Origin: Parcubacteria group bacterium
GTDB taxonomy: Bacteria > Patescibacteriota > JABMPQ01
NCBI GenBank assembly: GCA_013202585.1
Contig: JABMPQ010000019.1
Coordinates: forward strand, 1-36,294
Direction: 5' to 3'
DNA: 36,294 bases
In this document: positions 9,728-11,758 of the stretch, in pieces
Layout: the number at the start of each line of letters is the position of its first letter
Position numbering within the stretch: position 1 is the stretch's first letter
The notes under the pieces: generated by a model
Told to the model about the DNA's origin: nothing
The model's database searches: none
What the model saw: the letters and a program-made list of their open reading frames with translations, nothing else
Translations under genes and position numbers: made by a program

Positions 9728-11758
9728 ATGATAGACAATTGCCAAGAATTCGCCTCCGGTCACCGCAGCTGTCGTGGTTGCACGGCCGTACCGCAGCCAA
9801 TTCGCTATACTATCTCAGCGATGAAGGAAGAGGGGATCCCGGTCGTGATTGCCAATGCCACTGGCTGCACTGAGGTAACTTCGACTATCTCGCCCTACAC
9901 TTGCTGGAATGTGCCCTACATGCACAGCGTTTTTGCTAATGTGGCGGCCACGGCTTCTGGGATAGAAGCAGCTTATAAGGTACTCGAGAAAAAAGGCAAG
10001 CTGAAAGAGTTAAACGGAGGCAAAGAGGTAAAAAAGCCAGCCATTATTGCCTTAGCTGGCGATGGCGGTTCTTACGACATTGGTCTCCAATCTCTATCGG
10101 GTGCGCTCGAGCGTGGCCACGATTTTGTTTATATCTGTTATGACAATGAAGCTTATATGAATTGCTTGTCTACAGATTCTCTGATAATGACCGCAACCGG
10201 ACTAAAAAAGATCACTGACGTGAAAAGAGGAGAAAAAGTTTACGCTTTCGATCAGAAAAAGCATCAACCGGTTTTAAAAAAATGTACCGGTGTGCTCGAT
10301 AATGGTGTCAAGCAGGTATATAAATTACGAACCCTACATCACGACATCAAAGCAACAACCAATCACCCCTTTTTAGTATTGCAGCGAGGAGGTAGAGGGG
10401 GAAAGAATAAATTTGTTTGGAAAGTGCTAGGGAAGATTAAACCAGGGGATGAAGTTGTGGTGTCAAAAAAGCTAGACGAGGGCAAATCTTTTAAATTTTA
10501 TTTTAAGGAAACTAAAGTCGGGGATTATAAGGTGTCTCATCTAAATAAAGTTAAATTACCTAAAAGTTCTAGTTCAGATTTAATGAAATATTTAGGATTG
10601 TATGTTGGTGATGGCTGGATACGAGAGAAAAAAGGTGAGGTTGGTTTTGCTCTGCCGGCTGGAACTTCAGGTCGAAAGGCGTTACTTGCTGTACACCGTA
10701 AAATCTTCAGAAGCAAGGTGAGGACTGATAAACTATATGTTTATATTCATTCAGTTAATTTGGCTAAATTTATCAAATCACTGGGCTTTGGCCAAGGAGC
10801 AAAAAACAAGCTAGTGCCATCCTGGGTGTTCACCTTGCCACCGGAAGAAAAAGAGGCTTTTTTGGAAGGGTTGATGCTATCGGATGGATACAAACATGGT
10901 AACAGTTGGCGTTATGTTTCCGCTAGCGAAGAGTTGCTACGAACTTTGCGATTGTTGCTACAGACTTTTGATTATCGAGTAGGGGATATTCATTGGCAGA
11001 TAAAAAAGAAAGGCACCAAAGTAGTTTATCGTAAATTACTTAAAGATTCTAGATATGGCTATATTTGTTTTAGCAAAAAGCGCCAGTGGAATTTGGGGAA
11101 ATATCCAAACCAATATAGATATCAAAATTTCTTGGTTGATAATGACTATTTTGACGTTGAGAAGGTAAAATTTGTGAAACTGGTTGGCCGAGAACCGACG
11201 TTAGATCTACGAGTAGAAGGTGAACATAATTTTATTGCTGATGGAATAGTTGTTCATAACACAGGCAACCAACGCTCCTCCGCTACCCCTTTTGGCGCAG
11301 CCACGACCACTACGCCCGCTGGCAGTAAAATTGGGGGCAAGCAAAAACAACGCAAGGACTTAACTAAAATCGCTGTTGCCCATCACATTCCTTATGTGGC
11401 CACTGCTTCTGTTGCCCACCGAGCTGATTTTATTGCCAAAGTAAAAAAAGCGGTTGCCGTACAAGGACCAGCTTTCATTAATATGCTAGCGCCCTGCACT
11501 CTCGGCTGGAAATTTCCCGAGGACATGGGGATCGAGATCGCTCGTCTGGGAGTGGAGACTAATTATTGGCCTCTTTATGAAGTGGAAGACGGTAAATATA
11601 AGTTAAGTTACCAGCCAGCCGAACGTAAATCGATTGAGGAATTTATCAAACCGCAAGGACGGTTTAAACATCTCAAGGGCGACGATAAAGTCATGGCAGA
11701 AATACAGAAACATATTGATGAACAGTGGGAAGAGCTATCGGGATTATGCAACGAGTAA
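9728..11758 (+). CDS. porB: 2-oxoacid:ferredoxin oxidoreductase beta subunit with an in-frame intein
   Basis: The 676-residue precursor splits into an N-extein (145 residues), an intein (366) and a C-extein (165), so the spliced protein would have 310 residues, normal for PorB. The beta subunit binds thiamine diphosphate and a 4Fe-4S cluster and, with alpha and gamma subunits, oxidises pyruvate or a related 2-oxoacid to the acyl-CoA, reducing ferredoxin. Cluster ligands are likely Cys15, Cys18, Cys47 and Cys224 of the spliced form (APCTLGW). The thiamine-binding part has ALAGDGGSYDIG and YDNEAYMN, broken after Asn145 and resuming with TGNQRSSATP. No PorA or PorG gene lies in the window. The oxoacid specificity (pyruvate or other) cannot be fixed. 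It starts 9 nt after glmM. Confidence 0.92.
   Translation: MIDNCQEFASGHRSCRGCTAVPQPIRYTISAMKEEGIPVVIANATGCTEVTSTISPYTCWNVPYMHSVFANVAATASGIEAAYKVLEKKGKLKELNGGKEVKKPAIIALAGDGGSYDIGLQSLSGALERGHDFVYICYDNEAYMNCLSTDSLIMTATGLKKITDVKRGEKVYAFDQKKHQPVLKKCTGVLDNGVKQVYKLRTLHHDIKATTNHPFLVLQRGGRGGKNKFVWKVLGKIKPGDEVVVSKKLDEGKSFKFYFKETKVGDYKVSHLNKVKLPKSSSSDLMKYLGLYVGDGWIREKKGEVGFALPAGTSGRKALLAVHRKIFRSKVRTDKLYVYIHSVNLAKFIKSLGFGQGAKNKLVPSWVFTLPPEEKEAFLEGLMLSDGYKHGNSWRYVSASEELLRTLRLLLQTFDYRVGDIHWQIKKKGTKVVYRKLLKDSRYGYICFSKKRQWNLGKYPNQYRYQNFLVDNDYFDVEKVKFVKLVGREPTLDLRVEGEHNFIADGIVVHNTGNQRSSATPFGAATTTTPAGSKIGGKQKQRKDLTKIAVAHHIPYVATASVAHRADFIAKVKKAVAVQGPAFINMLAPCTLGWKFPEDMGIEIARLGVETNYWPLYEVEDGKYKLSYQPAERKSIEEFIKPQGRFKHLKGDDKVMAEIQKHIDEQWEELSGLCNE
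10163..11260 (+). mobile_element. Intein with LAGLIDADG homing endonuclease in PorB
   Basis: This in-frame insert of 366 codons has the standard splicing blocks. Block A begins with Cys1 (CLSTDSLIMTATG); block B has the T-x-x-H motif (TTNH, residues 65-68); blocks C and E are the two endonuclease helices, LGLYVGDG (about 144-151) and FLEGLMLSDG (about 233-242), both keeping the catalytic Asp; block F is VEGEHNFIADG and block G is VVHN, ending His365-Asn366. The +1 extein residue is Thr, a permitted nucleophile. All residues needed for class-1 splicing and homing appear present, so splicing and mobility may be intact. The boundaries follow from Cys1, the terminal HN and the restored extein motif. 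The insert sits in the thiamine-diphosphate site, a typical conserved active-site target. Confidence 0.95.

Follow-up and report, generated by a model that had tools for sequence, protein, structure and literature searches.

Within the window, by which we mean the whole stretch of 36,294 nt analysed here (contig JABMPQ010000019.1 of a Parcubacteria group bacterium, assembly GCA_013202585.1), we identified a gene for the beta subunit (PorB) of a 2-oxoacid/pyruvate:ferredoxin oxidoreductase that is interrupted in its thiamine diphosphate (TPP) site by an in-frame class 1 intein. With a probability of roughly 0.93, we read this element as a mobile intein that excises itself from its host protein and has homed across both domains. 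Bacterial and archaeal lineages, at least ten in all, carry it at one and the same codon. The window contig is contig 12 of a 78-contig genome of 1.22 Mb (79 % complete), the same-genus relative of which is a Patescibacteria genome.

An intein inside the porB frame

The ORF at 9728–11758 (+ strand) comprises 676 open codons and specifies PorB with the intein inside the frame; in a Pfam search, a TPP-enzyme domain was found to enclose intein splicing and LAGLIDADG domains in this one frame. PorB is matched by the host sequence on either side of the intein (NCBIfam NF008819, 1.2e-108; PDB 9bt4_C, 5e-66), and when aligned to the solved PorB structures 9bt4_C and 5c4i_C the two halves abut without a gap at Asn145/Thr512. 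The NF008819 score with the intein in place (362.9 bits) is below the family cut-off of 405, probably because the intein splits the gene. Once the exteins are read as joined, the PorB TPP motif GDG...DNEAYMNTG is present, and the predicted peptide across the junction of ligated PorB is YDNEAYMNTGNQR. Furthermore, Asn145 aligns to the Asn of DTEVYSN-TG in the one-chain PFOR (1b0p), a residue that we take to be part of the TPP-binding stretch. The substrate is presumably pyruvate, other 2-oxoacids being possible from the sequence. The features of the gene are listed below.

9728..10162, + strand: N-extein, PorB residues 1–145, ending in GDGG...YDNEAYMN of the TPP site; matches to the PorB family, 9bt4_C and 5c4i_C run up to Asn145
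10163..11260, + strand: class 1 intein, 366 aa, residues 146–511, with a Hint splicing domain and an inserted LAGLIDADG endonuclease; identified from domain matches, junction, relatives and model
10163..10165, + strand: Cys1, first splicing nucleophile; invariant in 33/33 aligned inteins
10283..10285, + strand: Cys41, second invariant cysteine; 33/33 aligned copies and 9/9 partial copies long enough to show the position
10355..10366, + strand: block B, TTNH, Thr65–His68; Thr65, Asn67 and His68 invariant across the aligned inteins
10592..10618, + strand: first LAGLIDADG motif, LGLYVGDGW, with catalytic Asp150; Pfam match and alignment
10868..10891, + strand: second LAGLIDADG motif, GLMLSDGY, with catalytic Asp241; Pfam match and alignment
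11150..11260, + strand: C-terminal splicing blocks F and G, with Asp348, His355 and His365–Asn366; TIGR01443 and alignment
11261..11755, + strand: C-extein, C-terminal part of PorB, TGNQRSS..., with Thr as the +1 residue; PorB family and structure matches

The TIGR model intein_Nterm begins at residue 146 and intein_Cterm (TIGR01443) ends at residue 512, whilst Pfam places Intein_splicing at residues 154–511 (8.8e-13) and LAGLIDADG_3 at residues 374–438 (3.9e-8). At its C-terminus the intein reads VVHN and is followed by Thr+1. The splicing residues are invariant in the 33 PorB inteins aligned, and of the 31 copies retaining an endonuclease domain, 30 have Asp150 and all have Asp241. An AlphaFold model of the intein alone, for which the 33 aligned relatives served as input, had a mean pLDDT of 92.7; its best Foldseek matches were the TliVMA and PhoVMA inteins, then PI-PkoII and PI-SceI, with E-values down to 2e-23. 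Judged by sequence and predicted fold, the PorB insert is, in every respect tested, a class 1 intein with a LAGLIDADG endonuclease. The sequence-only reading had called a complete class 1 intein at this locus, with Cys1, TTNH, two LAGLIDADG motifs bearing Asp, a C-terminal HN and Thr at +1, all of which are present. It had also placed the element in the TPP site of a PorB-type subunit, as borne out by the matches of the host halves to NF008819 and 9bt4_C, and its boundaries of 10163–11260 (366 aa) proved exact when compared with the domain ends and the extein junction Asn145/Thr512.

The pathway that we infer, for splicing activity and for DNA cleavage alike, would begin after translation, when Cys1 forms a thioester with Asn145. 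The N-extein would then pass to Thr+1, Asn366 would cyclise and the PorB halves would be ligated at Asn145–Thr512. Ligation, giving a protein of about 310 aa, would restore the TPP site in what is the sole PorB found, which would go on to work with PorG, PorD and PorA, whose genes lie on another contig. Acting on DNA, the LAGLIDADG endonuclease would recognize the highly conserved TPP-motif sequence of intein-free porB and cut there, and the intein would be copied into the cut porB during repair. Spread over both domains would have been possible because bacteria and archaea share this conserved target site; in some lineages the endonuclease would later have decayed or been deleted to leave a mini-intein, and the intein would probably have been lost.

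Occupied, empty and decaying sites

To survey the insertion, we used a codon-degenerate pattern for DNExYMN plus a following Cys, the motif of the empty porB gene being DNExYMN-TG, and ran it over 84,980 species, each represented by a single genome. Forty-six matches were obtained, 41 of which are PorB frames where the Cys begins an intein, including that of the same-genus genome (L066); L032, L036, L055, L057 and L077 matched by chance, in unrelated frames. The count is a lower bound, since further copies escaped the pattern and were caught by protein search (L082 and L083, with NNEAYMN before the Cys, and L101, with DNGAYMN). Intein-bearing bacteria in the scan include Patescibacteria, Omnitrophota, Cloacimonadota and Poribacteria, and intein-bearing archaea include Hadarchaeota, Bathyarchaeia, Methanophagales (ANME-1), Altiarchaeota, Woesearchaeota, Micrarchaeota, Aenigmarchaeota and Diapherotrites. 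There were no named cultured isolates amongst the true scan matches. Almost every carrier is a metagenome-assembled genome, and some of the copies lie on short contigs, so that single taxon labels may be wrong (e.g. Chloroflexi for L046 and Clostridia for L041, possible binning errors). The sequence-only reading had treated the intein as a single case: the intein itself stands, but it is not a one-off, as the same insertion occurs in about 40 other genomes from both domains. Within one metagenome series, OS_PC_MetaG, the PorB intein occurs at the identical codon in a member of the Patescibacteria (L066) and in a member of the Nanoarchaeota (L076).

Occupied porB copies are a minority in evenly drawn samples, with four full-length copies and one contig-end fragment in 237 genomes of Omnitrophota and a single copy in 118 of Cloacimonadota; for the phylum Diapherotrites, we counted six full-length and about four partial copies in 73 genomes. 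The PorB halves are contiguous in the same-order relatives G005 and G006 and across the Patescibacteria phylum. We fetched 45 empty-site homologues, and the site is empty at the identical codon in all 45 of these host genes; the set includes 10 genes of more distant Patescibacteria, in which the empty site that had been proposed as a check was thus found. Three PorB intein copies are without an endonuclease and one is decaying. Two of the three are mini-inteins, of 203 aa (L041:4805-5413) and 157 aa (L052:942-1412), whose closest host relatives (L043 and L075, respectively) carry full-length inteins; in the third, L068, the endonuclease is deleted and the gene frameshifted. The decaying copy (L045:4700-5746) has the altered motifs GNGW and LSDRY and has lost one catalytic Asp.

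A viral origin of the PorB intein was rejected, as neither the site pattern nor the intein query found a match or relative in 2.9 million viral contigs. The PorB intein was not found in the phage, plasmid and viral collections, phages and plasmids holding just remote inteins (about 25 % identity) in other hosts. Remotely related inteins also occur in long frames of different hosts in other Patescibacteria (L014, L015, L017, L018, L021 and L024).

Cys41, tree conflict and competing explanations

The strongest competitor to a homing intein, albeit an unlikely one, is a domesticated post-translational switch, by which splicing and pyruvate oxidoreductase activity would be held back under oxidising or other stress, e.g. 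via a disulfide between Cys1 and Cys41. Cys41 is invariant in 42/42 copies long enough to show it, including the two mini-inteins, in which cysteines 1 and 41 are the only ones, and the DnaB, DnaX and PI-PkoII inteins in the alignments inspected have a residue other than Cys there. The oxygen sensitivity of the host enzyme class, the PorB-type oxidoreductases, also counts for a switch. So does the conditional splicing, including by redox, that has been reported for other inteins (PMC10663303). However, Cys41 may be structural, and patchy presence, many close empty-site relatives and a mostly intact endonuclease are what selfish homing predicts without any benefit; the pattern of presence and absence is well accounted for by homing alone. 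More doubtful still is a redox gate conserved among bacterial and archaeal anaerobes, where a reversible disulfide of Cys41 with or near Cys1 would allow the oxygen-sensitive pyruvate:ferredoxin oxidoreductase to be completed only under reducing conditions. The role of Cys41 may be structural or redox, and a redox or temperature switch operated by the PorB intein, as raised in the sequence-only reading, is speculation.

Vertical descent from an ancient intein-containing porB, followed by many independent losses, would fit the single codon and clear homology of all copies, but is very improbable because the phylogenies of host and intein conflict. With 31 occupied and 44 empty genes placed on a tree of host proteins, intein occupancy needs nine changes, eight of which are forced by strongly supported branches; in Omnitrophota, the occupied L083 and the empty L106 are sister host proteins. 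The clearest case is the Cloacimonadota copy L034 (contig JACNFI010000238.1): its exteins are 92 % identical to the empty-site Cloacimonadota gene L118 and fall inside that clade (100/100), whilst its intein clusters with archaeal ones, those of Woesearchaeota and related inteins (99/97 support). Compared with its three nearest partners, L034 has an intein identity of 73–75 % and a host identity of 42–46 %. More broadly, intein identity exceeds host identity in 194 of 208 bacterium–archaeon pairs (mean 59.3 vs 49.9 %). The intein is not simply slower evolving, because in some pairs within Omnitrophota, where it can diverge faster, the relation is reversed (intein 58 %, host 83 %). Bacterial inteins as a single clade were rejected (AU p=1.65e-6), Omnitrophota inteins as a single clade were not (p=0.26), and the intein tree has a poorly resolved backbone. 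Vertical inheritance alone was rejected on this conflict between trees, and the sequences point instead to horizontal spread into intein-free alleles, a direction that we infer for the individual events; at least one passage of the PorB intein between Bacteria and Archaea is clear from them. Beside the insertion, no co-conversion tract was discernible in the L106/L083 and L118/L034 pairs, where synonymous differences are too numerous and even.

We consider it just as improbable that the intein does not splice and that the gene is dead or yields fragments only. Splicing is predicted from sequence, and a frameshift is present in at least one copy from another genome (L068); nevertheless, the window copy has kept every splicing residue as well as the TPP motif of the host. 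For the pair formed by the window and L066, dN/dS was estimated to be well below 1 in the exteins and in the intein (0.05–0.13; endonuclease part 0.05–0.12), values that are rough because synonymous sites are near saturation. Also arguing against a dead gene, this porB is the only one found in the genome (79 % complete), and its putative partners are intact on another contig, where porA (Pfam POR_N) has adjoining porG- and porD-like ORFs (L031, G000:C18), the latter two named by reading the sequence and not by profile search. In this genus porB stands apart from porG-porD-porA, flanked by glmM and a DUF4352 gene; porA and porB lie close together on the same contig in G005, G006 and G018, relatives whose site is empty. 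As it is the only porB found, splicing must precede any activity of the oxidoreductase, provided there is no second porB in the genome.

An assembly or binning artefact, in which an intein contig was joined to an unrelated porB in a genome of 78 contigs and 79 % completeness, has a negligible probability, as a chimera is ruled out by the same-genus genome G001 (= L066, isolate OS_PC_MetaG.mb.121), where the same precursor occurs at 85 % identity amongst the same neighbours (glmS, HAD, glmM, porB, DUF4352, DUF4349, glnA), and where, as in dozens of genomes, the frame is unbroken.

Relation to known inteins and significance

The best fold matches of the PorB intein, the VMA inteins TliVMA and PhoVMA (PDB 7qsu, 7qss and 7qst; E-values 2e-23 to 2e-18), also combine Hint with a LAGLIDADG endonuclease in an energy-metabolism host (the V-type ATPase catalytic subunit), but show about 19–24 % identity to it in structural alignments and occupy another host protein and site. 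PI-PkoII (2cw7) and PI-SceI (1dfa) likewise have a two-motif LAGLIDADG endonuclease within the Hint fold, yet they differ in host and target site and are remote in sequence (12–15 % similarity). The splicing regions of the DnaB and DnaX class 1 inteins (SspDnaB 1mi8, NpuDnaB 4o1r and SplDnaX 7cfv) align with that of the PorB intein, including the block B His, penultimate His and terminal Asn; unlike it, they reside in DNA-replication hosts, were solved as mini-inteins and have no Cys at the Cys41 position. The PorB/oxalate oxidoreductase beta subunits 9bt4_C and 5c4i_C belong to the same host family and align gaplessly across the junction, but are without an intein.

Inteins in metabolic hosts have precedents, as Methanocaldococcus PEP synthase and GlmS carry them. 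Their occurrence in other metabolic enzymes has been stated generally (PMC7765530). The sequence-only reading did not know PorB as a listed host, in agreement with our search: the open-access literature covered yielded no account of an intein in PorB, although an entry in a supplementary intein catalogue is possible, and the NCBIfam intein-specific models matched by the protein were those for GyrA, RtcB and Tes, with none for PorB. Whilst the kind of intein is known, its host, its site and its documented spread across domains appear to be new.

According to a review, proteins of replication, recombination and repair host 62 % of bacterial and 67 % of archaeal inteins (PMC5874633); whether function underlies this bias is a matter of debate. 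The PorB intein instead lies in the catalytic centre of an enzyme that is core to carbon and energy metabolism in uncultured bacteria and archaea. PorB inteins represent a new set for protein engineering, and the invariant Cys41 makes redox control testable. The alleles at this one codon range from full-length and decaying to mini and empty; together with at least one clear passage between archaea and bacteria, they also constitute a clean natural data set, on which the homing cycle, cross-domain transfer and the question of sensor versus selfish element can be tested directly.
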